From assembly GCA_027014115.1 (NCBI GenBank), contig JALWEJ010000042.1:1-64000 (forward strand): 64,000 nucleotides of DNA, read 5' to 3'. Positions 26,619-56,290 of this stretch are shown here, piece by piece (the stretch's first letter is position 1; every line of letters begins with the position of its first letter). The notes beneath the pieces are model-generated. The model worked only from the letters and a program-made list of their open reading frames with translations, had not been told where the DNA came from and made no database searches. This DNA is from Desulfurellales bacterium (lineage in GTDB: Bacteria; Campylobacterota_A; Desulfurellia; Desulfurellales; Hippeaceae). Both the position numbers and the translations under genes were made by a program.

Positions 26619-28031
26619 TTATATATCCCAGTAGAGTTGGAATTCGGCAGGATTGGGAATGGAGTTGATATATTTGACTTCGTTTTCTCTTTTGTAGTCA
26701 ATCCAAGCTTTTATTATATCTTCCGTAAAAACATCCCCTCTTAGTAAGAACTCGTAATCGTTTTCCAAAGCATCGAGTGCTTCTTCGAGATTTGCAGGAG
26801 CCTTTTCGACCTTTGCAAGTTCTTCAGGCGGCAAATCGTATATATTTTTATCCAACGGCTCACCCGGATCAATCTTGTTAATTATACCGTCAAGACCTGC
26901 CATCAGCATTGCCGAGAATGCAAGGTATGGATTTGCTGTAGGATCGGGGAATCTAACCTCAATTCTTTTTGCTTTTGGTGAAGGTGAATACATAGGTATT
27001 CTAACAGCTGCACTTCTGTTTCTTGATGAATATGCCAAGTTTATCGGAGCTTCGAAACCCGGAACAAGTCTTTTGTATGAGTTTACTGTTGGGTTTGTAA
27101 ATGCTGCAAGAGCTTTTCCGTGTTTTAGTATCCCGCCTATGTAGTATAAGCCTATTTCACTCATACCAGCATATCCGTTTCCTGCAAAAAGAGGTTTTCC
27201 ATCTTTCCATAAACTTTGGTGTGTATGCATACCTGTTCCGTTATCACCCGATAATGGTTTTGGCATGAATGTAACTGTTTTTCCAAACATTAGAGCGACA
27301 TTTTTTACTATATATTTATATTTTAAAACATTATCAGCCTGTAGAGAGAGTGGGGCAAACCTTACATCAATTTCTGCCTGCCCGGCTGTTGCTACCTCGT
27401 GATGATGGGCTTCAACCTCAATGCCCGCTTTTTCAAGTTCAAGAACCATCTCTGTTCTTAAGTCCTGAAGACTGTCTGTTGGCGGTACAGGAAAATAACC
27501 CTCTTTATGTCTAACCTTGTATCCGAGGTTTGGGTCTTCGTTGGCTGCTGAGTTCCAAATTCCTTCCATTGAGTCTACTTTATAGTATGCCGTATTTGAT
27601 TCTACCTCATATTTTACATCGTCAAAGATAAAGAATTCAAGTTCGGGTCCAAAATATGCAGTATCGGCTATCCCTGTTGATTTTAAATATTCTTCAGCCT
27701 TTTTTGCTACACTTCGTGGATGTCTTTGATAGCTTTCTTTTGTTATAGGGTCAACTATATCACAAATAATGTTGAGAGTTTTTTCTTCTGTAAATGGGTC
27801 TATAAATGATGTTGATGCATCAGGAATAACCAACATGTCACTTTCGTCTATTGATTTCCAACCTCTAATTGATGAACCGTCAAATCCCAACCCTTCTTCA
27901 AAAACATCTTCATCAAGTGCATGAGCAGGTATACTGAAATGCTGCCATGTTCCTATTAGGTCTATAAACCTAATATCTACGATTTTAATATCTTCTTCTT
28001 CGATTTTTTTAAGAACATCTGCGTTAGTCAT
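26619..28031 (-). CDS. glnA: Glutamine synthetase type I
   Basis: A 470-residue GSI that condenses ammonia and glutamate with ATP; a dodecamer in the cytoplasm. Canonical elements: [17 protein letters not shown] near residue 48, [11 protein letters not shown] near 125, [12 protein letters not shown] near 215, the flexible loop near 320 ([17 protein letters not shown]), and [27 protein letters not shown] near 350 precedes the region of the adenylylation tyrosine near the C-terminus (NIYDLPPEE), so adenylylation control is possible. An in-frame TTG at 28046 overlaps the GGAGG itself; the ATG at 28031 is properly spaced and gives the standard length. A sigma54-type promoter lies upstream. Confidence 0.96.
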
Positions 28032-28064
28032 ACTTTCTACCTCCAAAAATTTTTTATTATATTA

Positions 28065-28080
28065 AGCAATAGCTGTTCCG
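28065..28080 (-). promoter_or_regulatory. Sigma54 (-24/-12) promoter of glnA
   Basis: On the minus strand the sequence reads CGGAACAGCTATTGCT: GG, exactly 10 bases, then GC, with TTGCT at the -12 element, against the consensus TGGCACG-N4-TTGCW. The GC lies 35 bases upstream of the glnA ATG, leaving a leader of about 25 bases holding GGAGGT. A sigma54 activator gene is divergent from it. Confidence 0.7.
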
Positions 28081-28088
28081 TTACTGTT

Positions 28089-28120
28089 ACAATAGTAAAA
28101 ATAGTAAATGTGACTATTGT
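28089..28120. repeat. Inverted repeat, candidate enhancer/UAS in the glnA-activator spacer
   Basis: ACAATAGT (28089-28096) and ACTATTGT (28113-28120) are perfect 8-base arms with a 16-base spacer. The centre is roughly 50 bases upstream of the expected glnA transcript start, just beyond the -24 element, and also just upstream of the activator promoter. Placement suits binding of the neighbouring Fis-type HTH activator. Confidence 0.55.
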
Positions 28121-28132
28121 AGATGGTTGTAT

Positions 28133-28161
28133 TTGCAAAAATGTGTACATTTTTGTATACT
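28133..28161 (+). promoter_or_regulatory. Sigma70-type promoter of the activator with palindrome in its spacer
   Basis: TTGCAA (28133-28138), 17-base spacer, TATACT (28156-28161). The spacer carries a palindrome, CAAAAATG (28136-28143) / CATTTTTG (28148-28155) with a 4-base centre. Transcription would start at about 28168, on the ATG at 28169, and no ribosome binding site precedes that ATG. Confidence 0.6.
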
Positions 28162-28168
28162 TTCTAAC

Positions 28169-29716
28169 ATGTTAAAAGGGCAAATAAATATCAAAGAGGG
28201 TTATTTAAGTATTATACATGAAGCAAGCAAGCTTTTAAGTAAAAAAAATACACTAAAAGAATCTTTGAAAGAGATACTTAAAATACTCTATTCATATTGG
28301 GATACGCCTATTTCATTTGTTGCCCTGTATGATAAAGAGACATCACAAATTAAAATTGTTGAGAGTTTTGGCCTTACAAAAAAAGAAATGACAAAAGGCA
28401 TATTTAAAAGAGGTGAGGGTGTTGTGGGCAGTATCTTTAAAAATGAGATACCGGCTATCATTACAGATATAAAAACAAACCCGAGATACCTAAACAGGAT
28501 AAATCTTCTAAAAAGATTCAAAGAAGAGATGATTTTTGTTGGTGTGCCAATAAAGGTTGGAGGAGAACGATTTGGTGTTTTGGGAATCTATAAAGAAAAG
28601 AGCAAAAACTTTTCAAGCGATGATGCCATAAAAATGCTTTCTACGCTTGCAACATTGATAGGTTTAACAAAAAAGATGTATGAAAGAATGGAAGAGGAAC
28701 GAAAATTCTGGCAGGAAGAGAAACAAATTCTTCTAAACAGCATAAACAAAGATGTCTCTGCTCTCAATGATGTCATAGGTATATCCGAAGAGATAACAAA
28801 TGTGAAAAAAACTTTAATAAGAATGGCTACAACCGATTCAACGGTGTTAATAACAGGCGAAAGCGGAACAGGAAAAACCCTTATTGCAAAAGCTATTCAC
28901 AACTTGAGTCCGAGAAAAGATAAACCTTTCGCTACAATAAATTGTGCTGCAATTCCAGAAAATCTTTTGGAGAGTGAACTGTTCGGCTATGAAAAAGGAG
29001 CATTTACTGGTGCTTTATCCAGAAAAAGAGGAAAATTCGAGCTTGCTGATAAAGGAACACTTTTTCTTGATGAAATAGGTGATATGCCCTTAATGCTTCA
29101 GGCAAAACTGTTAAACGTAATTCAAGATAAAGAGATAACAAGGCTTGGAAGTGAAGATAGTATACCCATTGATGTAAGGATTGTTGCTGCAACAAATAAA
29201 AACATAGAAAAGCTGATAAGGCTCGGGCATTTTAGAGAGGATTTGTATTACAGGATAAATGTTTTGCCAATTCATATAAAGCCCTTAAGGCAAAGGAAAG
29301 ACGACATACCGATATTGATAGATTATTTTTTAAAGAAAATCAATAAAAGACATAATAAAAATATTCATATTAAGAATACGGCTTTAAAGTATTTAATAAA
29401 CTACGAATGGCCAGGCAATGTTAGAGAGCTTGAGAATACAATAGAGCGCCTTATTGTTCTAAATGATAGAGATATAGATGAAAAAAGTCTTCCGAACTAC
29501 ATGAGAGAGCAGGGTATGATTAATGATATAGACATAAAAGATATAGTGTATAATGATGTTCCTGTTGCGATAGAGGCGATAGAAAAAGAAAAAATTCAAA
29601 GCACACTTAAACAGACAGGATATGTAAAATCAAAAGCCGCAAGGCTGCTCGGTTACACCATAAGGCAGCTTGATTATAGAATCAAAAAATACGGAATACA
29701 TGTAAAAAAGATTTAA
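28169..29716 (+). CDS. Sigma54-dependent activator, NifA type (GAF-AAA-Fis)
   Basis: A 515-residue activator. GAF domain about residues 10-165 (starting [11 protein letters not shown]), then AAA+ about 190-420 with Walker [10 protein letters not shown], the sigma54-contact loop GAFTGA, Walker [11 protein letters not shown] and an arginine-finger region ([13 protein letters not shown]). A C-terminal Fis-type HTH ([19 protein letters not shown]) follows. No receiver domain, so control is through the GAF domain, as in NifA/FhlA. It is divergent from glnA, which has a sigma54 promoter, so it probably controls glnA in nitrogen response; no nif genes are in the window. A TTG at 28127 is in frame but lies upstream of the promoter, so ATG 28169 is chosen. 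Confidence 0.88.
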
Positions 29717-29739: not shown

Positions 29740-29811
29740 CATACAAATAATTAAATAAATTTAAAAAAGCCGTTTCGAAAGTGCTTTAAATATTTGTTAT
29801 TTATTTGTATG
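29740..29811. terminator. AT-rich bidirectional hairpin between convergent genes
   Basis: CATACAAATAA (29740-29750) pairs with TTATTTGTATG (29801-29811), and within the loop TTTAAAAAAGC pairs imperfectly with GCTTTAAA (29783-29790). It lies between the activator stop and the end of the RND gene, overlapping the latter's last codons. Little G+C, so a weak terminator at best. Confidence 0.4.
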
Positions 29812-32800
29812 GGTTTTGTATGAAAAATACAGTATGGGTATAATAATTAGTGTTAAAAGAGTGGATATAAGGGTTCCGAATATTAGTGATATAGCAAGGC
29901 CGTTGAAGATCGGGTCTTGAAGCATTGTTGCCGAACCGAAAATAATTGCCAAAGCTGTTAGAAGGATAGGCCTAAACCTTACTGCTCCCGATTCCAATAC
30001 GGATAAATTGAGAGGTTTACCTTCTTTTTCGTAGTCCAAAATAAAATCAATGAGCAGAAGTGAGTTTCTGACAACAATACCGGCAAGGGCTATAACTCCT
30101 ATCATCGATGTTGCGGTAAACGGTTGGCTCAATATCCAGTGTCCGGGGAATATTCCTATGATGGTAAGAGGTATTGCTCCCATAACTATTATTGGTATAA
30201 CAAATGACTTGTAATATCCCACTAGTATGAAATATATAAAAACAATAGCAAATATAAATGCAATTCCTAAATCTCTAAATACATCAAGCGTCAGTCTCAT
30301 ATCACCTCCCCAGCGTATCTGATATTGTGCCGCATCTTTTGGGATAGAATGGGAAAACCCTAAGTTTGACGTATGAAAAACAATACCGTTTGACAACTTT
30401 TTGCCATCCAGTTTTTTATCAAGATAGAGAAGGCCGTAAACAGGTGTAAAATCAATCATATCCGCACTGACATAGACAACTCTATGCTGATCTCTGTTGT
30501 AAATGGGTTGATGTTGTATAACTTTTTGTATACGTGCAATATCTCTAAGAGGAATAAGTTTTCCGTTCTTATTTAGAATTCTTAAATTTAAAATATTTTC
30601 AAGGTTTGCCCTGTCTTTCTTTTTTAATCTCAATACAATATATACCGGTTCTGTAAAGTTTTTGTCGTATACCCATTTAACAATCATTCCTTGCATATAA
30701 GAGTAAAGAAAATTGCTTATATTTCTCGGTGTTAAATTGGCAATCATGGCTTTAGTGTAATTAATATGTATTTTGTATTCATGATACGGAGGATAGACAG
30801 AACTGTCTATGTTTGAGATATTGTAAATGGATTGAAAAGAGTTTTTTATAATTTGTGCACTTTGTTGAAGCTTGTCATAATCTGGACCATATAGTTGAGC
30901 AAGTATTTGTGCCCTTGTGGGTGGTCCTGGCGGTTCCTTTATTACCTTGAAGATAGTGTTTTTGAACTGGCTTCTCAAAACATTTAACCGTTTATTGATA
31001 GCCTTTATTATCTCGATTTCCTGAGGCCTGTCTTTTTTTGTTAGATTTATTCGAATTTGGGCGATGTTTGATGTGTTTGTCATAATATATGTTCTCATTA
31101 GAGCACCGAAGTCGAACGGTGCCGACATTCCGGCGTATATTTGATACTCTGTTACATACGGATTTTTACCTATAATTTTTCCGGCTTTTTGTGCTATGGC
31201 AAGAGTAGTTTCTACAGGTGTTCTATATGGCGCTTTAATTTCAACGAGAAATGTATTTACATTGCTTTCTGGTAGAAGTTTAAACTCCACACCAAATGGG
31301 CTTAGTTGTCCGTTTAATCCAGAAGGTCTGATGAACTGCCAAGCAGGCATAGAAAGAGATATAAAAAGTAGTATTAAAGAAGATGTATAAATTATGCCCC
31401 TAAGGGATTTTTTTCTTAATACAGGTATGAGTGTTTTTTTATAGAGTGTTTGAAGTAAATCTCTTTTTTTCTCTAAATGGTGTTTCTTGTTGTTTAAGAA
31501 GCGCTTGCTTGTATATGGTATAATTGTATAAGCTGCAAGCACTGAAACAATCATGGCTATAGGAACATTTATCGGAATAGGTCTCATAAACGGGCCCATC
31601 ATTCCGCCGACAAATGCCATAGGTATAAAAGCCAGTATAACTGCTATTGTTGCTATGTTTGTGGGATTTCCTACTTCGTTTGCCGATTGTATTATTATTT
31701 CCTTAAAGCTTTTTGTTTTTTTCATGGCTATATTGCGGTGTATATTTTCTATTACTACTATTCCGCTATCAACAAGAAGACCCAAAGATAGAATGAGGGC
31801 AAAAAGTGTTATTCTGTTTATGCTTTGACCCACAATAAAATCTACGAATAAAACACTTAGAAGTACAAGAGGTACACTTAGTGTAACTATTAAGGATTCT
31901 CTCCAACCTAAAAAGATTATTAGTATAACAGCAACAATAGAAATGGATATAGATAGATGCTCAATTAGTGTATTAACAGCCTTATTTGCTTTTTGTCCAT
32001 AGTTTCTCATTATTTTTATACCGACATTCTGCGGTATCATTACTTGTTTTAGTTCGTTTAATCTTTTTATAACCTTATCTGCGACAACAACGGCGTTACT
32101 ACCTGTTTTTTTGGCTATTGATATTGTGACAGCTTTTACTTGATTGTTTACTTTATGGTTTTTTGATGAGGCTTGACCGTATGCAAACATGGAGTAGGTG
32201 TTGTTTTCGTTGTTATTTGCTTCTATGTCGGCGATATCTTTTAAGAACACGACCTTTGAGTTGCTGACTTTAACTATGACATTCCCCAAGGATTGCTTTG
32301 TGCTTAAAAGATTTGATAAGACAACCCTGATTTTTTTGTTGTTGTTTGTTAGGTTGCCCACAGGTGTAAAAACGTTGCTTGATTTTAGCATATCTATTAC
32401 GCTGTTTAGACCTATTTTGTAGTAGTTTAGTTTTTGTGGATTCAGATGTATATAAAAAACCTTTTTTGCTCCGCCCATGACATAGTTTGAGCCAATGTTC
32501 GGTATGCCTCTTAAGTTATCAAGAACTTTGCATGCAAGGTTTCTTAGGCTGAAATAATCAAGTTTATCAGAAAACAGTGTTATAGTTACAATAGGTATAT
32601 CATCAACACCTATTGAATTTATAGTGGGTTGAAGTGTTCCGGGCGGCATTCTGTCCATGTTTCTCATTATCTGGTTGTAGAGTTTTATTAAACTTTTTTC
32701 CTGATCTTCTCCTACTTTGAATTGAACGGTTACAACTCCAAAATCATCTGTTGCAAAGCTGAAAGTATGGTCAACACCGGTTATGGAACCCACAAGAGAA

Positions 32801-33024
32801 TCAAGCGGTTTTATTAGCTGATTTTCCATTTCAACAGTTGGTGTATCAGGTCTTTGGACGATAATATTTGCTGCGGGAACTTTTATTTCGGGGTCATACA
32901 TTCTCGGTGTCATCACAACAGCCATGATTCCAACCGTTAAAATTATTAGAATTATTAGCAGCGTTATTTTTGAGTCTATAAAACTTTCTGCAAGTTTCCC
33001 TGCTATGTTTTTATTGTTTTTCAT
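29797..33024 (-). CDS. RND efflux transporter permease (AcrB superfamily)
   Basis: A 1075-residue inner-membrane RND pump with the usual duplicated layout: one N-terminal helix, periplasmic porter loop, six helices, then the same again. The fourth-helix motif reads LGLLVDSGIVVIEN, with a single Asp where drug pumps of the AcrB type carry two (VDDAIVVIEN in the other pump of this window). The proton relay is therefore altered, as in some metal or other substrate branches. Overlaps its adaptor gene by 14 bases. No outer-membrane channel gene is attached, so it may share a TolC such as the one at 44856. Substrate unknown. Confidence 0.9.
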   Translation of the reverse strand: MKNNKNIAGKLAESFIDSKITLLIILIILTVGIMAVVMTPRMYDPEIKVPAANIIVQRPDTPTVEMENQLIKPLDSLVGSITGVDHTFSFATDDFGVVTVQFKVGEDQEKSLIKLYNQIMRNMDRMPPGTLQPTINSIGVDDIPIVTITLFSDKLDYFSLRNLACKVLDNLRGIPNIGSNYVMGGAKKVFYIHLNPQKLNYYKIGLNSVIDMLKSSNVFTPVGNLTNNNKKIRVVLSNLLSTKQSLGNVIVKVSNSKVVFLKDIADIEANNNENNTYSMFAYGQASSKNHKVNNQVKAVTISIAKKTGSNAVVVADKVIKRLNELKQVMIPQNVGIKIMRNYGQKANKAVNTLIEHLSISISIVAVILIIFLGWRESLIVTLSVPLVLLSVLFVDFIVGQSINRITLFALILSLGLLVDSGIVVIENIHRNIAMKKTKSFKEIIIQSANEVGNPTNIATIAVILAFIPMAFVGGMMGPFMRPIPINVPIAMIVSVLAAYTIIPYTSKRFLNNKKHHLEKKRDLLQTLYKKTLIPVLRKKSLRGIIYTSSLILLFISLSMPAWQFIRPSGLNGQLSPFGVEFKLLPESNVNTFLVEIKAPYRTPVETTLAIAQKAGKIIGKNPYVTEYQIYAGMSAPFDFGALMRTYIMTNTSNIAQIRINLTKKDRPQEIEIIKAINKRLNVLRSQFKNTIFKVIKEPPGPPTRAQILAQLYGPDYDKLQQSAQIIKNSFQSIYNISNIDSSVYPPYHEYKIHINYTKAMIANLTPRNISNFLYSYMQGMIVKWVYDKNFTEPVYIVLRLKKKDRANLENILNLRILNKNGKLIPLRDIARIQKVIQHQPIYNRDQHRVVYVSADMIDFTPVYGLLYLDKKLDGKKLSNGIVFHTSNLGFSHSIPKDAAQYQIRWGGDMRLTLDVFRDLGIAFIFAIVFIYFILVGYYKSFVIPIIVMGAIPLTIIGIFPGHWILSQPFTATSMIGVIALAGIVVRNSLLLIDFILDYEKEGKPLNLSVLESGAVRFRPILLTALAIIFGSATMLQDPIFNGLAISLIFGTLISTLLTLIIIPILYFSYKTHTNK

Positions 33025-34048
33025 CTGAAATAACGGATTCGTTTTTCAAAGATAAAGGCGGATTTAAAACCACTTTCTCGTTTGGTAACAGACCTGAAAG
33101 AATCTCAGTATAGTTATTGTGTGAGTTTCCAACTCTAACCATCCTAAAATATGCTTTATTGTTTTGATCTACAACAAAAACACCCTTTATGCCTCCGTGG
33201 GTTGTTATGGCATCTTTGTGAACAACAATTACAGGTTTCGTTTTTTCTTTTACAATAACATATGCAAATTCACCGGGTTTGGCATGTATTGTGTTCGGTA
33301 AATCTGCCTTTATTGTTAATGTTCTTGCAGCAGAATCCAATGCCGGAGCAATGTGAGAAACTTTTATATTTACTGTTTTGTCTTTTATTTCGACCTTTAT
33401 GTATCCTAAGGAATTGATGGAGTTAAGTGTTTTTTCATCTATATTGGCTATTACTTGCAGTGCATTTGTTCGGCTTATTTTAATCAAGGGCTGAAACATA
33501 GAGGTTATATCTCCGTTGTTTACATATTTTTGCGAAACTATACCGTCAATGGGTGATTTTATAATAGAATACTTGAGTGCGGATTGGGATGTTTTTAGTC
33601 CTGCAACAGCCTGTTTATATGCACTGAGTGCTGTTTTGTAATCGGTTTTTATTTTAAGGAACTGTTGTTGTGATATGACCTTATTTTTATACAGTTTTGA
33701 GTATCTTTTATAGTTGAATTCTGCATTTTTGAGTTGAGCTTTGGCTTTTGAAACATTGGCGTAAGCTTCTTGTATATTTTGTTTTGAAGTGTTTTGATCT
33801 ATGGATAACAATATATCACCTTTTTTTACCTTATCACCTATATCAACTTTCAAATTCTCAACAAATCCGGGTATCTTTGATAATATGGTTGCATCCGTTC
33901 TGGAAGTAATTTCTGCAGGAATATAATTATATACTGGTTCCTGCTTAAGTTTTACCACACCTGTTTTTAATGTTGCAGCAATAGTTACAGAAGAAATGAA
34001 TAATACAAGAAAGGTTAAATTTAATAAATAAGTGCAATACTTTTTCAT
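33011..34048 (-). CDS. RND efflux periplasmic adaptor (membrane fusion protein)
   Basis: 345 residues: signal peptide about 1-24 (ending VTIAA), lipoyl/barrel-sandwich half (GFVENLKVDIGDKVKKGDIL near residue 60), alpha hairpin about 85-145 with repeated KAQL/YKRY heptads, second lipoyl half (SIIKSPIDGIVSQKYVNNGD), then beta barrel and membrane-proximal domains. It bridges the pump encoded just downstream to an outer-membrane channel. An inverted-repeat operator candidate lies upstream of the ATG. No strong Shine-Dalgarno is visible. Confidence 0.9.
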   Translation of the reverse strand: MKKYCTYLLNLTFLVLFISSVTIAATLKTGVVKLKQEPVYNYIPAEITSRTDATILSKIPGFVENLKVDIGDKVKKGDILLSIDQNTSKQNIQEAYANVSKAKAQLKNAEFNYKRYSKLYKNKVISQQQFLKIKTDYKTALSAYKQAVAGLKTSQSALKYSIIKSPIDGIVSQKYVNNGDITSMFQPLIKISRTNALQVIANIDEKTLNSINSLGYIKVEIKDKTVNIKVSHIAPALDSAARTLTIKADLPNTIHAKPGEFAYVIVKEKTKPVIVVHKDAITTHGGIKGVFVVDQNNKAYFRMVRVGNSHNNYTEILSGLLPNEKVVLNPPLSLKNESVISDEKQ

Positions 34049-40586: not shown

Positions 40587-41744
40587 ATGAAAATATCCGT
40601 CAAACATTTGAGAGCTGCTGCTGTATTGACTTTTATGTTCATATTAGTTTTATCTGTTCAATCCATATCGAAAACCAATACACACAAGACGGCAGGTTTG
40701 CATGCGCTTCCTGTTGATGTGTATAGGGTTGAAAAACCAAAAGATTTACCTGTGGATTTGGAATACCCAGCAAGGCTAAAGAGTGTTCAAAGGGTTACTG
40801 TCTATGCAAGGGTGTCGGGTGTTTTGATGAAAAAGTTTTACAAAGACGGTCAGTTTGTAAAAAAAGGTGATTTGTTGTATGAAATAGAGCCCGACACATA
40901 CAAAGCCCTTGTTGATTCTGCAAAAGCCGAGGTAAAAAGCGCAAAGGCTGCCCTCAACAAAGCCAAACGAGATTGGAGAAGAGTTAAGGCTCTTTATGAT
41001 GCAAAAACAGTGAGCCAAAAAACGAGAGATGCTGCGTTATCTGCATACGAAATTGCCAAAGCCGACCTTGAAAAAGCCAAAGCAAATCTAACAAATGCCA
41101 AGATAAACTTCAATTACACATCTGTACGTGCAGCCTCAGACGGTGTTGTAGGTTTGCCGTTTGTTGATGTTGGAAATTTTGTAAAAAGCGGAACTGCTTT
41201 GACTGTTATTACAAAACTTAATCCCATATATGCAGACTTTTCCATACCCGATATCGGTGTTGTAAAACAAAAGTATTATATAAAAAACTCAAAGTGGAAA
41301 CAGTTTGGAGATAACCTCAAGGCAGTTTTAAAGATAAATAACGCTAAGTATCCGAAAGAGGGTGTTGTTGAATTTATTGATTCAAATATTGATGAAAAAA
41401 CATCTACGGTCAAGGCTCGTGCTGTTTTTGACAATATGGATAACTACTTAATGCCTGGTGAATTTGAAAGAATTATACTGAAAGGGCTTTTTGTGAAAAA
41501 TACCATACTTGTTCCTCAAAAGGCAGTTTTACAAAACCCTCTCGGTGTTGTTGTTTTTGTGGTAGATAAGAAAAAAGCCCAGATAAGACCCATAAAACTT
41601 GGAGAAACATCAGGCAAGTATTACATTGTTAATTGGGGCCTAAAAAGAGGAGATATGGTTATTGTTAACAATTTTTTCAGACTTAGACCCGGCATGCCTG
41701 TGAAAATTGACAAGATAGTTAATGTCGATTTAAAGGATAAGTAG
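40587..41744 (+). CDS. RND efflux adaptor, AcrA/MexA type
   Basis: 385 residues: N-terminal membrane/signal segment (about 10-30), lipoyl half VSGVLMKKFYKDGQFVKKGD near residue 74, long alpha hairpin about 100-175 (repeats of AK-A, KAKANLTNAKINF), second lipoyl half RAASDGVVGLPFVDVGNF, beta barrel and membrane-proximal domain ending VNNFFRLRPGMPVKID. It links the AcrB-type pump (2 bases downstream) to the TolC-type channel that follows. Strong GGAGG ribosome site. Confidence 0.94.
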   Translation: MKISVKHLRAAAVLTFMFILVLSVQSISKTNTHKTAGLHALPVDVYRVEKPKDLPVDLEYPARLKSVQRVTVYARVSGVLMKKFYKDGQFVKKGDLLYEIEPDTYKALVDSAKAEVKSAKAALNKAKRDWRRVKALYDAKTVSQKTRDAALSAYEIAKADLEKAKANLTNAKINFNYTSVRAASDGVVGLPFVDVGNFVKSGTALTVITKLNPIYADFSIPDIGVVKQKYYIKNSKWKQFGDNLKAVLKINNAKYPKEGVVEFIDSNIDEKTSTVKARAVFDNMDNYLMPGEFERIILKGLFVKNTILVPQKAVLQNPLGVVVFVVDKKKAQIRPIKLGETSGKYYIVNWGLKRGDMVIVNNFFRLRPGMPVKIDKIVNVDLKDK

Positions 41745-41746
41745 AT

Positions 41747-44700
41747 ATGTTTTCCAAATTTTTTATAGATAGGCCTATTTTTGCTGTTGTTATATCAACA
41801 ATAATTACTCTGCTTGGTCTTATTGCCATAAAAGAGCTTCCTATACAGGAATATCCAAGCATTGTTCCACCGCAAATTAGTGTGACAGCTGTTTATCCCG
41901 GAGCGGATTCAGAAACCCTATCAAAAGCAGTTGCTGCTCCGCTTGAGGAGTCCATAAACGGTGTTAAAAATATGATATATATGACATCAACAGCATCGCC
42001 AAGCGGTATTTTAACACTTAATGTTTCGTTTAAGATAGGCACAAATCCCGACTCTGCAAAGGTTGATGTAAACAACCGAGTTCAGACGGCTTTAGCAAAA
42101 CTGCCCGAAATTGTACGTGCTCAAGGTATAAGTATAAGAGAAAAATCACCCGATATTTTAAGAGTTTTCACATTCACCTCCAAAGGTGAAAAGCACAGCA
42201 CACTCTATATGGCAAACTATGTTCTTGTTAATGTTTTGGATGATTTAAAGAGGATTTCAGGTGTGGGTGAGGCTGTGATTTTCGGAAGCCAGGATTATTC
42301 AATAAGGGTATGGATTAAACCCGATAAGCTTGCAGCATTTGGTTTGACAACAACGGATTTGATGAATGCCATAAAAAGCCAAAACAATCAGTTTGCAGCA
42401 GGCACAATAGGTCAAGAGCCGTTAAAAAACAAGCCTGTTTTTACATATACGGTTACAACAAAAGGAAGGCTCAAAAATGTAAAGGAATTTGAGAATATTA
42501 TCATAAAATCCAATCCTGACGGTTCGGCATTAAAACTAAAAGATGTTGCAAGGATTGAGCTTGGTTCTGAGCGGTACTTTCTAAAAGGAAACTACAATAA
42601 CGAACCTGCCGTTTTTGTCGGCATATTTTTATCACCCGGTGCAAATGCGCTCAATGTATCAAAAGCTGTTGATGCAGCAATGAGCAGACTCTCAAAGAGG
42701 TTTCCTTCTGATTTTGAATACCACAATGTTTATGATACAACCCAGTTTGTTCAAGCCTCAATAGAAGAGGTGTTGTATACCCTTGCTTTTGCCATTATAC
42801 TTGTTGTCGTTGTTATCTATATTTTCTTGGGAACACTGAGAGCAACAATCATACCTGTTCTGGCGATACCTGTATCTGTTGTGGGCACTTTCGGAGGTTT
42901 TTATGCAGCCGGATTTTCAATAAATCTTCTGACGCTGTTCGGGCTCATTCTTTCAATAGGACTTGTTGTTGATGATGCAATTGTTGTTATAGAGAATGTG
43001 GATAGAATTCTAAAATCAAGCCCAAAAAGTCTCAGTGTAAAAGATGCAGTTGCAGAGGCAATGAGCGAAATAACAGGACCTATTGTGGCAATTGTTTTGG
43101 TTTTGTCGGCTGTATTTATCCCTGCATCTTTTGTGGGCGGGTTTAGCGGAAAGATGTATCAGCAGTTTGCTTTAACCATAGCAACATCTGTAATCATTTC
43201 AGGAATAGTGGCTTTAACCCTTACCCCTGCTTTGTGTGCCATTTTTTTAAAGAAAGAAAGCAAAAAACAGTTTTGGCTTACAAGACAGTTTAATCTGTTT
43301 TTTCATAAAACAACAAAGGGGTTTGCAAAGGGTGTGAAAGGTATCATAAGACATTCGATTTTTGCAAGTTTTATGTTTTTGGTTATGCTTTTTGCCGCTG
43401 TATTTATTATGCATAGACTGCCTACAGGGCTTGTTCCCAGCGAGGATAAAGGCGATATAATGCTTATTGAATACTTAATGCCTGGTGCATCACTCGATAG
43501 AACCGTTAAAGTTCAAAAAGATGTGACATTCATGCTTTTGGCTAATCCAAACATTACAAGTGTGGGTTCTATGGCCGGTATTGATTTAATTACATTTGCA
43601 TTTGAGACAGATGACGGTATCGGTTTTGCTCATTTGAAGGATTGGTCTAAAAGAAAGCTGTCTTCGCAGCAGATAGTAAACAGACTTATGAGACAGCTGT
43701 TTGGGTATAAAGAGGCTTTTGTAATGGCTGTAAACCCTCCGCCCATTATGGGCATGAGCACGACAGGCGGTTTTGAACTCTACATACAGGATAGAACAGG
43801 CAGAAATATTCAACTGCTCAACCGATATGTAAAAGCGATTGTAGAAAAGGCCAACCAAACACCGCAGCTGACTATGGTCAGGTCAATGCTTAACACAAAT
43901 GTGCCTCAGTATCGTATTGTTGTTGACAGGCAAAAGGCGAAAGCATTGGGTGTAAGTATAGGCGATATTTTCATGACACTTCAGGCAACATTCGGAACGG
44001 CGTATGTAAACGATTTTAATCTATACGGTAGAACATACCATGTAAATATACAGGCAGAAGGGAATTTTAGAGAATCAACAAGGGATTACGGCAGTGTGTT
44101 TGTAAGAGCCGAAAACGGCAGTCTTATACCGATTGGCTCTCTTGTCAGTATAAAAAGAATTGTGGGACCGAGTGTTATACAGAGATTTAATTCATTTCAG
44201 TCGGCAAAAATAATAGGTCAGCCCAAATTCGGATATTCATCGGGCGAGGCAATGGCTGCTGTAGAAAAAGTTGCAAAAAGCATACTACCAAACGGATACA
44301 CAGTTGCATGGTCTGGAACTTCATATCAGGAGAAAAAACTATCAAAATCAGGCAACAAATCGTTTATATATGCTTTGGTGTTTGTATTTTTGATTTTGGC
44401 GGCTTTGTATGAAAGCTGGAGCATACCATTTTCAATTATACTCTCTGTGCCCTTTGCTCTTTTTGGAGCTGCACTTGCCGTATGGCTTAGAGGTTTTGAG
44501 AGCGATATATATTTTCAAGTTGGAATAATTACACTTGTCGGTTTATCAGCCAAAAATGCCATACTGATGGTTCAGTTTGCACTTCAGAAGCTCAATGAGG
44601 GGTATTCTCTGTTTGATGCAACCGTTGAGGGTGCAAAAATAAGATTTAGACCGATTGTTATGACATCGCTTGCCTTTGTTGTTGCTGCAATACCTTTGGC

Positions 44701-44866
44701 GTTCAGCAGCGGAGCGGGTGCAAACAGCAGACGCATAATAGGAACAACGGTTGTTGGCGGTGATTTGTTTGTTACTTTGGTTGGTATATTTTTCATACCG
44801 CTGTTTTTCTATCTCATTATGAAATTAAAGCTTATGTTTTTAAAGGATAAAACAAATGAAGTATAG
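41747..44866 (+). CDS. Multidrug RND transporter, AcrB/HAE1 family
   Basis: A 1039-residue proton-driven pump, the standard length. FFIDRPIFAVVISTIITLLG starts the first helix; PEYPSI-like QEYPSIVPPQISVTAVYPGA; the fourth-helix relay LSIGLVVDDAIVVIENVDR with both Asp; FGLILSIG and, in the second half, LVGLSAKNAILMVQFA and FRPIVMTSLAFVVAAIPLAF. Twelve transmembrane helices and two periplasmic loops are evident. It expels hydrophobic compounds across both membranes with its neighbours; the last codons overlap the channel gene. Confidence 0.96.
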   Translation: MFSKFFIDRPIFAVVISTIITLLGLIAIKELPIQEYPSIVPPQISVTAVYPGADSETLSKAVAAPLEESINGVKNMIYMTSTASPSGILTLNVSFKIGTNPDSAKVDVNNRVQTALAKLPEIVRAQGISIREKSPDILRVFTFTSKGEKHSTLYMANYVLVNVLDDLKRISGVGEAVIFGSQDYSIRVWIKPDKLAAFGLTTTDLMNAIKSQNNQFAAGTIGQEPLKNKPVFTYTVTTKGRLKNVKEFENIIIKSNPDGSALKLKDVARIELGSERYFLKGNYNNEPAVFVGIFLSPGANALNVSKAVDAAMSRLSKRFPSDFEYHNVYDTTQFVQASIEEVLYTLAFAIILVVVVIYIFLGTLRATIIPVLAIPVSVVGTFGGFYAAGFSINLLTLFGLILSIGLVVDDAIVVIENVDRILKSSPKSLSVKDAVAEAMSEITGPIVAIVLVLSAVFIPASFVGGFSGKMYQQFALTIATSVIISGIVALTLTPALCAIFLKKESKKQFWLTRQFNLFFHKTTKGFAKGVKGIIRHSIFASFMFLVMLFAAVFIMHRLPTGLVPSEDKGDIMLIEYLMPGASLDRTVKVQKDVTFMLLANPNITSVGSMAGIDLITFAFETDDGIGFAHLKDWSKRKLSSQQIVNRLMRQLFGYKEAFVMAVNPPPIMGMSTTGGFELYIQDRTGRNIQLLNRYVKAIVEKANQTPQLTMVRSMLNTNVPQYRIVVDRQKAKALGVSIGDIFMTLQATFGTAYVNDFNLYGRTYHVNIQAEGNFRESTRDYGSVFVRAENGSLIPIGSLVSIKRIVGPSVIQRFNSFQSAKIIGQPKFGYSSGEAMAAVEKVAKSILPNGYTVAWSGTSYQEKKLSKSGNKSFIYALVFVFLILAALYESWSIPFSIILSVPFALFGAALAVWLRGFESDIYFQVGIITLVGLSAKNAILMVQFALQKLNEGYSLFDATVEGAKIRFRPIVMTSLAFVVAAIPLAFSSGAGANSRRIIGTTVVGGDLFVTLVGIFFIPLFFYLIMKLKLMFLKDKTNEV

Positions 44867-46250
44867 AATATTTTTTATAATAAGTCTTTTTCTGCTGATT
44901 GAGGGGTGTTCTTTTGCACCCAAATTCAGCAAACCCAAGATGGAACTGCCCAAAAAGTTTGACAGTAATGCATTTATTGATGCGCAGTATTCTAATGTCA
45001 GATGGTGGATGCAGTTTAAGGATAAGACGCTTGATGGTTTGGTTTCTCAGGCTCTGCAGAATAACGACGATTTAAAACTTGCACTTGCAAGGATAGAAGA
45101 GGCAAAAGCCTATTTAGGTTTGCAGAAAGCCAATCTTTTTCCCAATGTATCTTTGAGTTTTTCAGCTCAAAGACAAAAGATAAATAGTCAGATATCTCCA
45201 AAGGGACAGGCAGAAACTGCAAATAGTTATATTTTTTCATCCTCTGCTGCCTATGAGATTGATTTGTGGGGAAAATTGAGAAACAAAAAAAAGGCTTCTT
45301 TGGCATCGCTTTTATCCCAAGAGGCCGCAAAGAATACCGTAAAGATTACACTGATATCAAATGTTATATCCACCTATTTCAAGCTTATATCGATAAACAA
45401 ACAACTTGAGATTGCAGAAGGCGTTGAAAAAGCTTATAGAGCATCTTATAAGTACAGACAAAAACAGTATAAATTCGGTCAGATTGATAGGCTGATTCTT
45501 TTGAGGTCAAAATCACAATATGAGAATGCAAGAATTCTTGTTGAGTCGCTGAAAAATATGAAAACTATAACGAAAAGCGCTCTTTTTGTGATGATTGGAC
45601 AAAGCCCGAAAAACATATTTTCTCATAACATTTCAATAAAAGACAGTTTGCCAAAACCTATCAAAATTCCTAAAGCTCTGCCGTCTTCTTTGTTGAAAAA
45701 CAGACCCGATATAATTTATGCTCTAAATCAAATAAAGGCGAAGAATGCAGTGATAGGTGCTGCCAAAGCTGACTATTTTCCCTCAATTTCGTTGACAGGT
45801 TTGCTTGGTTTTCAAAGCCGTGAACTATCAAACCTGATAAAACATTCAGCAGGTTATTTTGGTGTTTCGGGTGCATCCGGTATGGACATATTGGATTTTG
45901 GAAGGGTTGGCTCAAATGTGGATATAGCAGAAGCTCAAAAGCGCAAAGCCGTTATTCAATACAAAAAAACAGTAAGGGCTGCATTTAAAGAGGTTTATGA
46001 TGCTTTGAATAATTTGAAGTGTGATTATAAAAAATTAAAATTTAAAAAGAATCAGGTAAAAACATTAAAAGAGTCGCTTAAAGTTTCCAAAAAACTGTTT
46101 ACAGGCGGTGTTGTTGACTATCTCAATGTTCTTGATGCTCAAATGGAATACTTAAATGCACAGCTTGAACTTGAAAATTATAAAGCAGCCATCTTGAATG
46201 ATGAGGTCTATTTGTATAAAGCTTTGGGTATTGGTTGGCAGGAAAAATAA
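44856..46250 (+). CDS. Outer-membrane efflux channel lipoprotein (NodT/OprM family)
   Basis: 464 residues: lipobox IEGC at about residues 15-18, then WWMQFKDKTLDGLVSQALQNN, the typical OprM/NodT opening, two repeats of coiled helices each followed by beta strands (LSFSAQRQKINSQIS; FPSISLTGLLGFQSRELS), and a C-terminal VVDYLNVLDAQMEYLNAQ. It forms the trimeric outer-membrane tunnel for the RND pump encoded upstream (11-base overlap). Confidence 0.94.
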   Translation: MKYRIFFIISLFLLIEGCSFAPKFSKPKMELPKKFDSNAFIDAQYSNVRWWMQFKDKTLDGLVSQALQNNDDLKLALARIEEAKAYLGLQKANLFPNVSLSFSAQRQKINSQISPKGQAETANSYIFSSSAAYEIDLWGKLRNKKKASLASLLSQEAAKNTVKITLISNVISTYFKLISINKQLEIAEGVEKAYRASYKYRQKQYKFGQIDRLILLRSKSQYENARILVESLKNMKTITKSALFVMIGQSPKNIFSHNISIKDSLPKPIKIPKALPSSLLKNRPDIIYALNQIKAKNAVIGAAKADYFPSISLTGLLGFQSRELSNLIKHSAGYFGVSGASGMDILDFGRVGSNVDIAEAQKRKAVIQYKKTVRAAFKEVYDALNNLKCDYKKLKFKKNQVKTLKESLKVSKKLFTGGVVDYLNVLDAQMEYLNAQLELENYKAAILNDEVYLYKALGIGWQEK

Positions 46251-47094: not shown

Positions 47095-49758
47095 ATGAAA
47101 TTTTCAGATCCTTTTAAAATAATGCAACCCGATGAAAGATGGGCACCGACACAAGAGCAAATGGATTTATTTCAGAATGCTTATGAAAAATTATTGCCAC
47201 CACTTGTTTATAAAATAAGATTAGCAGTAACAGAATGGAGAGACAATAATTATGACGGTGCATCTGAAACTTCTAAAGCATTAATGAATTTTTGGTTTAA
47301 TCAAGAACATTTTATAGGCCAAAATAAGTTTACTTTTTTCTTTTCACAAAGAGAAGCTATAGAGTCGATTATTTATCTTTACGAAGTAGCCAAAGCTATA
47401 GATAAGTACGAATTAATGCGTTTTGACTCATCAAAGCGTGTAAGTACAGGAGTGTTTGATGAAAATTGGACAAGATATGTTATTAAAATGGCAACAGGTG
47501 CAGGAAAGACAAAAGTTATGGCTTTAACGCTTGTTTGGAGTTACTTTCACAAACTCTATGAACCCGAAAGCAATTTATCAAAAAACTTTTTGGTTATTGC
47601 ACCCAACATAATTGTTCTTAATCGTTTAAGAAAAGATTTTGACGGGCTTAAAATGTTTTTTGAAGAACCTTTTATTCCCGACAATGGTTTTGATGATAAA
47701 GATTGGAAAAATGATTTTCAGCTGACTTTGCATATTCAAGACGAATTAAAGCCAATTACAGAATCGGGTAATATTTTTCTTACAAACATTCACAGAGTTT
47801 TTTTGAACGAAACTCCAGAACAAACATTTGAAGATATTTTTCTTGGAGTCAAACCAAAACCCGATGCTGATACTTCAAAAGGTTTAGATCTTGGAAAGAT
47901 ATTAAGAAGCGACAAAATTAAAGATTTGGTTGTTCTAAATGACGAAGCACATCATATTCACGATAGCTCTTTGGCTTGGTTTAAAAGTATTGAAGATATT
48001 AGCAATAAATTGAAATTAAAAAACGGAACAGGTGTATCTTTACAAACTGATTTTTCAGCAACGCCTAAACATAACAATGGGGCTATTTTTGTTCAAACAA
48101 TATGTGATTATCCGTTGGTTGAAGCCATTAAGCAAAATGTGGTAAAATCGCCGGTTTTACCGGATGAAGTTTCAAGACAAAAAATTCAAGAAAAAGAATC
48201 AAACGATTTTATTGAAAGATACAGAGATTATATTCATTTAGGATATTTAGAATGGGAAAAACAATATGAAGAGCTAAAAAATCATAAGGTACCGATTTTG
48301 TTTATTATGACTATGAGCACAAAAGAGGCAGACCAAGCCGCTGAATTTTTAGAAAATACATATCCCAAACTAAAAAATGCCGTTTTAACAATTCATACCA
48401 ACAAATCCGGTGAAATAAAAGAAAATACATCAAGTAAAAAAGATAAAGAAGAGTTGGAAAAACTACGTAAAGCCGCCGATTTGGTTGATAAAGATTATTC
48501 GCCTTACAAAGCTGTTGTTTCGGTTTTAATGCTTCGTGAGGGATGGGATGTGCGCAATGTTACAACTATTGTTGGGCTTCGTCCTTTCAAAGCAGACTCT
48601 AAAATTTTACCCGAACAAGCTATAGGAAGAGGTTTGCGAAAAATGTTTGGCTTTGATACTCCTGAAAAACTTGTTGTTGTTGGAACACCTGCATTTTTAG
48701 AATTTGTAGAAAGCCTTAAAACCGAAGGAGTTGAATTTCAATACAGCCCGATGGGTAAAGGTTCAAAAGGGAAAGCACCTGTTATTATTGAGGTTGATAA
48801 AGATAATCCAAATAAAAATCTTGACGAATTAGATATTCCTATTCCACAATTCAGCCCGAGAATTTATCGAGAATTTAAAAATCTTGAATTGATTGATGTA
48901 AATAAATTGCAACATAAAACGGCTGCATTCAAAACATTTAAAGAAAAAGAACTGAAAGAAATTATTTTTACAAATATTGAAGGTGATTTTTCGCATAAAA
49001 CCGTATTTAAAGACACAATTCCGGATTACAGAAATGTGATAGGATTTTTTACTTCTGCTATTCTTAAAGAAAGCCGTTTGATAAGTGGATTCAACATACT
49101 TTACCCCAAAGTGGAAAGTTTTATAAAATATAAACTTTTCGGCAAGGAGGTGGAACTGTCCGATCCACAAACATTAAGAAATTTATCTGAAATTGAAACA
49201 AAAGAAATTCTGAAATCTACTTTTAAAAAAGCAATTGACAAACTTACAGTAAGCGACAAAGGAACAGTAGAAATAAAAAATTATATTTCACTGAAAACAA
49301 CAAAACCCAAAGTTGCGCCCAATCAAGCTTTTCTTCTGCCGAGAAAATCGGTATTTAATAAAATTATAGGCGATAATCCATTTGAATTGGAATTTGCATC
49401 TTTTTTAGAGAATCGTTTTAATGATGTTATTGCTTTTGCTAAAAACACAATGGGTGAAGGCGGTATTAACTTTAAAATTGAATACCAGGCCGAAGATGGA
49501 AATATACGTGAATATTTTCCTGATTTTTTTGTTAAAACAGATGAAAACACTTTTTATATTGTAGAAACAAAGGGGCGTGAAGATTTAGACGATTTGCGAA
49601 AAATTGAAAGACTTGCAATATGGTGTAACGATGTAAACAAAGCACAAGACAAATATTCCTATACACCTGTATATGTAAAACAAGAAAAGTGGGACGATAT
49701 AAAAGATGAATTAAAGTCATTTGATGATGTAATTAAAATTTTTAAGGTCAAAGCATGA
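47095..49758 (+). CDS. Type III restriction endonuclease, Res subunit
   Basis: 887 residues. SF2 translocase: Walker A KMATGAGKTKVMAL near residue 133, LVIAPNIIVLNRL, DEAH-type box LNDEAHHIHD near 285, FSATP, and motif VI EQAIGRGLRKMFG near 505. A C-terminal PD-(D/E)xK nuclease reads YFPDFFV then FYIVETKGRED near 815-840. With Mod (50816) it would form a type III enzyme that cuts about 25 bases from an unmethylated site after translocation. Res comes first here, with a DUF1016 gene between, instead of the usual mod-res order. AAGGAC ribosome site. Confidence 0.92.
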   Translation: MKFSDPFKIMQPDERWAPTQEQMDLFQNAYEKLLPPLVYKIRLAVTEWRDNNYDGASETSKALMNFWFNQEHFIGQNKFTFFFSQREAIESIIYLYEVAKAIDKYELMRFDSSKRVSTGVFDENWTRYVIKMATGAGKTKVMALTLVWSYFHKLYEPESNLSKNFLVIAPNIIVLNRLRKDFDGLKMFFEEPFIPDNGFDDKDWKNDFQLTLHIQDELKPITESGNIFLTNIHRVFLNETPEQTFEDIFLGVKPKPDADTSKGLDLGKILRSDKIKDLVVLNDEAHHIHDSSLAWFKSIEDISNKLKLKNGTGVSLQTDFSATPKHNNGAIFVQTICDYPLVEAIKQNVVKSPVLPDEVSRQKIQEKESNDFIERYRDYIHLGYLEWEKQYEELKNHKVPILFIMTMSTKEADQAAEFLENTYPKLKNAVLTIHTNKSGEIKENTSSKKDKEELEKLRKAADLVDKDYSPYKAVVSVLMLREGWDVRNVTTIVGLRPFKADSKILPEQAIGRGLRKMFGFDTPEKLVVVGTPAFLEFVESLKTEGVEFQYSPMGKGSKGKAPVIIEVDKDNPNKNLDELDIPIPQFSPRIYREFKNLELIDVNKLQHKTAAFKTFKEKELKEIIFTNIEGDFSHKTVFKDTIPDYRNVIGFFTSAILKESRLISGFNILYPKVESFIKYKLFGKEVELSDPQTLRNLSEIETKEILKSTFKKAIDKLTVSDKGTVEIKNYISLKTTKPKVAPNQAFLLPRKSVFNKIIGDNPFELEFASFLENRFNDVIAFAKNTMGEGGINFKIEYQAEDGNIREYFPDFFVKTDENTFYIVETKGREDLDDLRKIERLAIWCNDVNKAQDKYSYTPVYVKQEKWDDIKDELKSFDDVIKIFKVKA

Positions 49759-50762
49759 ATGAATTAACGAAAGACAACGAGTATAAAAAACTTGTCAATA
49801 ATATTGGTTCTCTTTACAAAAAAGCTAAAAACAATATTATTTCCGCTATAAATATTGAAATGTTAAATACCTATTGGGAAATAGGTAAGTATATTGTTGA
49901 GTTTGAGCAAAACGGAAAATTAAAAGCCGAATATGGTAAACAACTGCTTGTAAATTTATCTAAAGATTTATCCGTAAAATATGGCAAAGGATTCAGCAGA
50001 AGCAATTTACAATATATGCGTCTTTTTTATTTGTATTATCCAATTCGCCAAACACTGTCTGGCAAATTGAGTTGGTCTCATTACATAGAGTTGCTGTCAA
50101 TAAGTGATGAGTTAGAAAGGCAGTTTTATCATAAACAAGCTGAACTCGAAAATTGGTCGGTTAGAGAACTAAAAAGGCAAAAGAAAACGGGACTTTTTCA
50201 TAGAATTGCATTGAGTAAAAACAAAGATGAAATTCTTGAACTTGCAAAAAAAGGACAAATTATTCAATCGGAACAAGATTTGGTAAAAAATCCTTATGTT
50301 TTTGAATTTTTAGGTTTGCCGGAAAAAAATTTGTACAATGAAAGCGATTTGGAAAATGCCATAATAACAAATCTTCAAAGCTTTTTATTAGAATTAGGCA
50401 AAGGCTTTGCTTTTATCGGGAGACAGCATCGTATTACGCTCAACAACAGGCACTATTTTGTTGATTTGGTTTTTTATCATACAAAATTGAAATGTTATGT
50501 ATTAATTGATCTTAAGATAGGAAAAGTTGAATACGAACATATCGGTCAGATGAAATTATATCTTGGCTATTACGAAAAAGAGGTAAACGATGAAATGGAT
50601 AATCAGCCTATAGGAATAATTCTTTCGGAAGAAAAAGACGATATAATGGTTGAATATGCGATGCTTAATGATTCTTCCAAACTGCTCGTCTCGAAATATC
50701 AACTTTTTTTACCGGACAAAGAGGAACTAATAAAAAGAGTTAAAGAAATATTAGATAAATAA
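49755..50762 (+). CDS. DUF1016/YhcG PD-(D/E)xK nuclease-domain protein
   Basis: A 335-residue YhcG-family protein. The N-terminal DUF1016 winged-helix region (MLNTYWEIGKYIVEFEQNG, GFSRSNLQYMRLFYLYYP, LSWSHYIELLSI, WSVRELKRQ) is followed by a nuclease-like domain with F-IGRQHRITL, YFVDLVFYHTKLKCYVLIDL and K-IGKVEYEH, the D-x-K arrangement. Members often sit in restriction-modification loci, and their exact role (accessory nuclease or DNA recognition) is not settled. Overlaps res by 4 bases. Confidence 0.9.
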   Translation: MNELTKDNEYKKLVNNIGSLYKKAKNNIISAINIEMLNTYWEIGKYIVEFEQNGKLKAEYGKQLLVNLSKDLSVKYGKGFSRSNLQYMRLFYLYYPIRQTLSGKLSWSHYIELLSISDELERQFYHKQAELENWSVRELKRQKKTGLFHRIALSKNKDEILELAKKGQIIQSEQDLVKNPYVFEFLGLPEKNLYNESDLENAIITNLQSFLLELGKGFAFIGRQHRITLNNRHYFVDLVFYHTKLKCYVLIDLKIGKVEYEHIGQMKLYLGYYEKEVNDEMDNQPIGIILSEEKDDIMVEYAMLNDSSKLLVSKYQLFLPDKEELIKRVKEILDK

Positions 50763-50815
50763 TGAAACAAAAACTTTTAGGAAACAATTTTAAACAAAAG
50801 AAAAAAGGATGAATA

Positions 50816-53044
50816 ATGAACCTAACTGAAAAAGACAAAAACCGCATAATAGAGCTTATAAAAAGTGGTGAAAAATTGCCCAAAGAGGATATTTACAAAC
50901 TCTTTTCCGACGAAGAAGATGTTTTTCTCTTTTGGAACGGACGAAAAGAAGAGGTTACTAATATTGCTCTGCCTTTTCACAGCATAGAACAGATTGACGA
51001 ACCGCGTAAAGATACTAAAACAAGGCCAACGCTGTTTGATACAAGAGGCAGACAGCTTAAAGGGTGGACAAACAAACTGATATGGGGAGATAATAAACTT
51101 ATTCTTTCCTCTTTGGCAAACGGACCAATCCGCGAAGAAATTGAAAAACAAGGCGGCATAAAACTTATTTACATTGACCCGCCTTTTGCCGTTGGTGCAG
51201 ATTTTGGTTTTACCATTGAAATTAACGGTGAAACTGCGGAAAAGAAACAAAGCATAATTGAAGAAATTGCATACCGAGATACTTGGGGTAAAGGAATTTC
51301 CAGCTACCTGACTATGATGTATGAACGCCTAAAATTGATGCATAGTCTTTTGGCGGATGACGGGAGTATTTATGTGCATTGTGATTGGAGAGTTAATTTT
51401 TTGTTAAGATTTCTACTGGAAGATATTTTTGGACATAATAATTTTGGTACTGATATTATTTGGAAAAGAACTGGTGGACATCATCTTGCTTATAAAGGTT
51501 TTGATGTAATGACTGATACTATTCTATGGTTTTATAAATCAAAAAATTATATTTTTAATCAACCATACCAACAACTTTCTGAAAAAGAGCTAAATGAAAA
51601 ATTTCCATACATTGAAAAAGAAACTGGAAGAAGATTTAATCATCAAAAATTAGAAAAATCTTCAAATTCTTATAGTAAAGGTGAAACGCGTATTATTCAA
51701 GGGAGAAAAATTGTTTCAAATATCGGTTGGATTTGGACTCAGGCAACCTTTGATGAGCGATTGCAAAAGAACCCTTACTTAATTTATTGGACAACTAATA
51801 ATAAACCAAGATATAAATTATATGCAGATGAATATATTGGTAGAAAAATTGGTAATATATGGGACAACATCGAAGCATTAGCGTCTGGTTCAAATGAACG
51901 TATCGATTACCCAACTCAAAAACCCGAAGCTCTATTAGAACGCATCATGAAAGCCAGTAGCAACGAATGCGATTTGGTTGCGGATTTCTTTTGCGGCAGC
52001 GGCACAACGGCAGCAGTTGCCGAAAAGCTCGGTAGAAAATGGATAGCAGCAGATTTAGGCAGATTTGCCATACACACTACAAGAAAAAGAATGATAGGCG
52101 TGCAAAGGCAGTTGCAAAAAGAGGGCAAAGATTACCGTGCTTTTGAAGTGCTTAATCTCGGTAAATACGAACGGCAGTTTTTTATGGACGACCTTACAAA
52201 CGGTCAATTGAAACAAAAAGAAGAACTGTATATAAATTTAATCTTGGAAGCCTACAAAGCCAAACGCATAGAAGGACACAAAACTTTGCACGGCAGTAAA
52301 GCCGGCAGATTTGTTCACGTAGGTCCTTTGGATGTTCCGGTAACACAAAATCGTTTGATTAAAATTTTTGAAGAGTGTAAACAAAAACTTTACACACAAG
52401 TTGATGTATTGGGCTTTGAATTTGAAATGGGGTTAACACCGCAATTTATTCAGGAACTCAAAGAAAAGGGTGTAGCCATAACACTTAAATATATTCCAGG
52501 AGATGTATTTGATAAAAGAGCAGTAAAAAAAGGGCAAGCAAAATTTTATGATGTGGCTTACTTAAACGCTAAAGTGCATAAAGTAAAAGAAAAAACAATA
52601 AAAATAGAACTCACCGATTTTGTTACACACTACACACAAGATGATATTGAAGATATTCAGCAATCAATGCGAAAAGGAAGTAAAGTTGTAATTGAAGATG
52701 GGCAAATCATAAAAATTACCAAAGACAAAAACGGTATCTTAAACAGAGAAGTATTAACTGAAAACTGGTATGACTGGATTGATTACTGGGCAATAGATTT
52801 TAATTACGAAGATAAAAAAGAGATTATTCGTATTCATAATGAAAAGGGCGAAATAGAAGAAAAATGGACTGGAAATTATCTATTTGAAAACGAGTGGCAG
52901 AGTTTCCGCACAAAGAAAAATCAGGAATTGGAATTTACGAGTGCCACACACGAATACGACAAGAAAGGGAAATATAAAGTTATGGTAAAAGTCGTTGATA
53001 TTCTGGGAGTTGACACCAGTAAAATAATAGAGATTGAAATATAA
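50816..53044 (+). CDS. Type III DNA methyltransferase, Mod subunit
   Basis: A 742-residue beta-class methyltransferase. Motif IV IYIDPPFAVGADFGF (DPPF, N6-adenine type) precedes the SAM motif DFFCGSGTTAAVAEKLGRK near residue 384, so the order IV-target recognition-I is that of type III Mod proteins. The stretch between (about 205-345) is the likely target-recognition domain. A long C-terminus ends in a beta-sandwich, PKD-like tail (EYDKKGKYKVMVKVVDILG). It would methylate the site that Res cuts. AAAAAAGGA site upstream; followed by a convergent gene. Confidence 0.93.
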   Translation: MNLTEKDKNRIIELIKSGEKLPKEDIYKLFSDEEDVFLFWNGRKEEVTNIALPFHSIEQIDEPRKDTKTRPTLFDTRGRQLKGWTNKLIWGDNKLILSSLANGPIREEIEKQGGIKLIYIDPPFAVGADFGFTIEINGETAEKKQSIIEEIAYRDTWGKGISSYLTMMYERLKLMHSLLADDGSIYVHCDWRVNFLLRFLLEDIFGHNNFGTDIIWKRTGGHHLAYKGFDVMTDTILWFYKSKNYIFNQPYQQLSEKELNEKFPYIEKETGRRFNHQKLEKSSNSYSKGETRIIQGRKIVSNIGWIWTQATFDERLQKNPYLIYWTTNNKPRYKLYADEYIGRKIGNIWDNIEALASGSNERIDYPTQKPEALLERIMKASSNECDLVADFFCGSGTTAAVAEKLGRKWIAADLGRFAIHTTRKRMIGVQRQLQKEGKDYRAFEVLNLGKYERQFFMDDLTNGQLKQKEELYINLILEAYKAKRIEGHKTLHGSKAGRFVHVGPLDVPVTQNRLIKIFEECKQKLYTQVDVLGFEFEMGLTPQFIQELKEKGVAITLKYIPGDVFDKRAVKKGQAKFYDVAYLNAKVHKVKEKTIKIELTDFVTHYTQDDIEDIQQSMRKGSKVVIEDGQIIKITKDKNGILNREVLTENWYDWIDYWAIDFNYEDKKEIIRIHNEKGEIEEKWTGNYLFENEWQSFRTKKNQELEFTSATHEYDKKGKYKVMVKVVDILGVDTSKIIEIEI

Positions 53045-55548: not shown

Positions 55549-56290
<742 letters not shown>

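Follow-up and report, generated by a model that had tools for sequence, protein, structure and literature searches.

NifA is the switch for nitrogen fixation, and a NifA-like protein of Aquifex aeolicus, AQ_218, was reportedly found by Studholme et al. in 2000 to bind about 100 bp upstream of the glnBA operon. This circuit is the nearest precedent for the locus described here, the spacer between glnA and a divergent activator gene in a 64,000 bp stretch of DNA from a Desulfurellales bacterium (GCA_027014115.1, contig JALWEJ010000042.1, positions 1 to 64,000; hereafter the window). In both systems the activator is a NifA-like GAF-AAA+-Fis protein, the organism has no recognisable nitrogenase, and a site, a candidate one here and a reported one in Aquifex, precedes a glutamine synthetase operon by about 100 bp. 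Unlike in the Aquifex circuit, the activator gene here is divergent from glnA, its promoter shares the candidate site, and separate promoters of glnK and amtB belong to the candidate regulon. What is new beyond Aquifex would thus be the candidate regulon, a precise predicted operator and an apparently autoregulatory layout. We did not find a paper on a NifA-like/glnA circuit in the relatives of this bacterium. A 2025 survey of sigma54 regulons placed glutamine synthetase under sigma54 primarily in Pseudomonadota (PMC12316311).

The locus also resembles the NtrB-NtrC system of the Escherichia coli type in its candidate targets (glnA, glnK-amtB and the regulator's own gene), in its predicted dependence on sigma54 and in the presence of PII, but the activator has no receiver domain, no protein of the genome scores above the NtrC cut-off and the sites are of the NifA type. 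The likeness to NifA of nitrogen fixers, at the level of sequence, extends to the domain order, the GAFTGA loop, the T-x-RQ core of the recognition helix and TGT-N10-ACA, which is the published NifA upstream activator sequence (UAS) (PMC10590331). Unlike those of NifA, the targets here are ammonium-assimilation genes, as candidates, and no nifH scored over the cut-off in any of the 25 genomes of the class. We consider it highly probable that this spacer acts as the control region of a nitrogen-assimilation regulon of the NifA-like kind, working by the whole scheme proposed below. The parts, their conservation, their spacing and the candidate regulon are read directly from the DNA.

The glnA gene (26,619-28,031, minus strand) encodes a type I glutamine synthetase of 470 aa (TIGR00653, 689.5 bits against a cut-off of 429) and has orthologues in relatives. 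A GlnA search covered 60 relatives and gave a match in all 18 other genomes of the order among them (families f1 and f2). The glnA Shine-Dalgarno sequence, GGAGG (28,040-28,044, minus strand), is kept in the spacer alignment. The initial annotation had described a GG-N10-GC sigma54 promoter facing glnA and proposed looking for conservation of its -24/-12 elements by aligning glnA spacers. The promoter (GGAACAGCTATTGC) is found at 28,066-28,079 on the minus strand and is kept in 17/17 genomes of the order, with GGAA-N6-TTGC common to all 17 spacers. Its position predicts a glnA transcript start at about 28,054, and RpoN is encoded in the genome. In the alignment of the 17 spacers one conserved block is the sigma54 promoter and another adjoins the activator start; the sequence between them is unconserved.

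Domain, family-model and GAF-structure matches identify the divergent gene (28,169-29,716, plus strand, 515 aa) as a NifA-like sigma54 activator, which agrees with the GAF-AAA-Fis protein with an intact GAFTGA loop read there previously. The GAF domain spans residues 28-166, the sigma54 AAA+ domain 203-369 and the Fis helix-turn-helix 468-508, and the translation contains EKGAFTGAL. The top NCBIfam model is the NifA equivalog TIGR01817, with a score of 486.4 bits that falls under the cut-off of 528.85. Against the NtrC model the protein reaches 321.8 bits, under the cut-off of 558.6, and it has a GAF domain in place of a receiver. Its closest solved GAF domains are those of Aquifex Nlh2 and Nlh1 (Nlh1/Nlh2 GAF structures 4g3k and 4g3v), and it is 47% identical to a protein of an Aquifex-type MAG. 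In a tree, 11 activators of the order form one clade (100/99), which is not placed inside nif NifA and whose branching relative to NifA or Aquifex is unsettled. This placement, the single cysteine of the protein and the equivalog score set it apart from NifA of nitrogen fixers.

In 17/17 genomes of the order with a fully read glnA locus, this one included, the activator gene and glnA are divergent. None of the three enhancer-binding proteins of the genome scores over the NtrC cut-off, and a NifA-type UAS lies at a fixed distance from the glnA promoter (see below). These observations favour the initial proposal that glnA is regulated by a receiver-less, NifA-like activator and not by NtrC, and such an activator is the best candidate to be drawn from the sequence. 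Classical NtrC control would instead hand glnA to a receiver-AAA-Fis protein encoded on contig C48 together with a membrane kinase, and would make the NifA-like gene a mere neighbour. The C48 protein is a full NtrC-family response regulator adjoining a histidine kinase, but it scores 396 bits against the NtrC cut-off of 558.6, its kinase looks membrane-bound, unlike NtrB, and its recognition helix lacks the NifA-type T-x-RQ, whereas the sites are NifA-type. The gene kept beside glnA throughout the order is, moreover, the NifA-like one and not the C48 regulator. Classical NtrC control of glnA is improbable. The genome also encodes a FlgR-like receiver-AAA+ protein without a Fis helix-turn-helix (G000:C17, L002 1096-2241), likewise under the NtrC cut-off.

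The candidate UAS for the NifA-like activator is TGT-N10-ACA-N4-TGT, read on the minus strand at 28,147-28,169 (TGT at 28,167-28,169, ACA at 28,154-28,156 and TGT at 28,147-28,149) and not mentioned in the initial annotation. The center of its TGT-N10-ACA lies at about -108 from the predicted glnA start. The full motif occurs in 32 of the 37 glnA, glnK and amtB promoters of the order versus 0.3% of shuffles, and in 33 if the extra -N4-TGT is not required. These counts describe rather than prove, because refinement of the motif used the very promoters that were then counted, and because the genomes come from relatives that are not phylogenetically independent. The exact motif is missing from glnA of one genome (G004) and from four glnK/amtB promoters. 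From the center of the UAS to the -24 GG the distance is 73-74 bp in every glnK/amtB promoter that has the motif; for glnA it is 82-86 bp in 15/16 promoters and 94 bp in one. These distances differ by steps of about one helical turn, glnA being one turn further than glnK and amtB. A composite pattern of palindrome and sigma54 promoter, run with a reversed control, is a better control than the motif count. It matches 22 of the 25 class genomes (reversed control, 0), including glnA in 19/19 genomes of the order by coordinate, and has no match in three class genomes without rpoN. About a dozen further matches fall elsewhere, of which we looked at only some.

A gapped-pattern search of the 25 class genomes found nine exact 20-bp tandem repeats of the palindrome ACA-N4-TGT. 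Eight of the nine are upstream of a PII gene (glnK) or amtB, and they include this genome's own glnK (contig C68) and amtB (contig C48). ACA-N4-TGT repeated at 20 bp contains TGT-N10-ACA, and with this period present at glnK and amtB we no longer took the conserved block for a simple TACA-N4-TGTA palindrome. In the Aquifex-type MAG the extended element is nearly complete ahead of glnBA (11/12 match), at 85 bp from the -24 GG. In one genome outside the class a NifA-like gene adjoins glnA, with similar palindromes that lack the exact N10 spacing. The genome's own glnK promoter (G000:C68, L006 1440-1500) has GG-N10-GT (GGAACGATATTTGT) rather than GG-N10-GC, and its UAS is a 12/12 match. In one relative (G017:C23, L159) a second amtB is broken up or interrupted by masked bases, and a perfect tandem UAS is retained.

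The activator has a sigma70-type promoter of its own in the spacer, TTGCAA-N17-TATACT, with the -35 at 28,133-28,138 and the -10 at 28,156-28,161 (both plus strand). The -10 ends 7 nt before the ATG and no Shine-Dalgarno sequence is visible. In the 17 genomes the distance from the end of a -10-like hexamer to the start codon is 7 to 13 nt, and in 13 of them it is 7 or 8 nt. This layout, which holds in most of the order, suggests that the activator mRNA is leaderless or nearly so. The -10 lies inside the UAS, which also takes in the first base of the ATG. Occupancy of the UAS should therefore repress the activator gene; the layout suggests autorepression. Part of the conservation of the block at glnA has another cause, because the block coincides with the activator's own promoter. 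One could go further and take the block for that sigma70 promoter only, with glnA driven through sigma54 by another activator acting from elsewhere or from solution. Both hexamers do coincide with the conserved block, and two further NtrC-family proteins are found in the genome. Against this, the same TGT-N10-ACA-N4-TGT is found at glnK and amtB, 73 bp upstream of the GG, and the loci read there showed no divergent activator. At glnA, moreover, the stretch between the two hexamers is conserved, and so is the TGT at the start codon. A purely sigma70 role for the block is quite unlikely, and we favor its reading as an enhancer shared with the activator promoter.

The initial annotation had placed the activator's site elsewhere, at an 8+8 inverted repeat. 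The repeat is present and is in fact 9+9 (28,088-28,121, with TACAATAGT at 28,088-28,096 and ACTATTGTA at 28,113-28,121), but the special status given to it did not hold. Among dinucleotide shuffles of the glnA spacer, about 4% contain arms of at least 9 with a loop no longer than 24 (about 15% for arms of at least 8), and both arms together occur in none of the 16 relatives, including the same genus, with one mismatch allowed per arm. Conservation in orthologous spacers, the check named for this site, thus failed, and the repeat was rejected as an operator. Its center at about -50 had also been thought unusually close for DNA looping; the conserved site is centered at about -108, an ordinary enhancer distance. 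That the activator uses the repeat all the same, at unusually short range, is extremely improbable. The repeat does exist, but the relatives that lack it have conserved both the sigma54 promoter and the activator, arms as long are a matter of a few shuffles in a hundred, and the arm on the promoter side is inside a separate element.

This element, also absent from the initial annotation, is a proximal box (CTATTGTAACAGTAAC; 28,080-28,095, minus strand) directly upstream of the -24. It is a semi-conserved palindrome, approximately TGTTATAACAATAAYGG, and is found in the glnK and amtB promoters of relatives as well as at glnA. An A stands six bases before the GG in 37/37 of the glnA, glnK and amtB promoters. 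Those sigma54 candidates of this genome that look flagellar and were read do not have the box, and its reading as a feature common to the sigma54 promoters here was rejected. For the same reason it looks regulon-specific, though degenerate.

From these elements we infer binding, looping, activation, autorepression, transcript start and signal as follows. The activator would be made from its own sigma70 promoter, probably on a leaderless mRNA, and its dimers would bind the TGT-N10-ACA-N4-TGT element at 28,147-28,169 through their Fis-type domains. By DNA looping the bound activator would reach sigma54-RNA polymerase at the glnA promoter, some 108 bp distant, and its AAA+ ring would open that promoter. 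The same binding would cover the activator's -10 and the first base of its start codon and give negative autoregulation. In trans, glnK(-amtB) and amtB would be driven via the fuller ACA-N4-TGT-N10-ACA-N4-TGT.

Sensing through the GAF domain is plausible, and this domain would most likely read nitrogen status either by itself or via PII. Oxygen sensing by NifA of alpha- and beta-proteobacteria is cysteine-based, and such sensing is unlikely in this activator because of its single cysteine. PII control of NifA has been described for alpha- and beta-proteobacteria (PMC9866876), which makes PII or 2-oxoglutarate the most likely signal input here as well. As noted initially, PII is encoded elsewhere in the window: a protein of 112 aa (55,549-55,887, minus strand; PF00543, 119.7 bits) is the candidate input, and a second PII gene of the same genome is on contig C68.

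An order without nifH over the cut-off thus appears to use a NifA-type protein and a NifA enhancer for everyday ammonium assimilation, with a target set that NtrC controls elsewhere. The Aquifex case would be extended to a second lineage, with a searchable operator, and a possible origin of NifA as a general nitrogen regulator becomes testable. More tentatively, the NifA-type activator and its TGT-N10-ACA enhancer might be an old general nitrogen-assimilation system that was later recruited as the nif-specific NifA. In this class it would have been kept, would replace NtrC entirely and would repress itself via the glnA enhancer; Aquifex-type bacteria, and perhaps one more phylum, would have kept it too. 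We hold this broader history to be possible but rather doubtful.

In family f4 of the class (G020, G022, G024; L105, L172-L174) amtB, glnB and glnA are consecutive, and a NifA-like gene lies downstream of them. A palindrome is kept there 60-63 bp from the GG, but TGT-N10-ACA is not; another half-site stands about 31 bp beyond the palindrome. In family f3 of the class (G019, G021, G023), with genomes of 1.1-1.2 Mb, neither rpoN nor amtB passed the thresholds used, and GlnA has no match in two of these three genomes. Elsewhere in the window, translations read by eye point to two RND-type efflux clusters (29,797-34,048 and 40,587-46,250) and to a type III restriction-modification-like locus (47,095-53,044) that contains a helicase-type restriction subunit, a DUF1016-like protein and an adenine methyltransferase.
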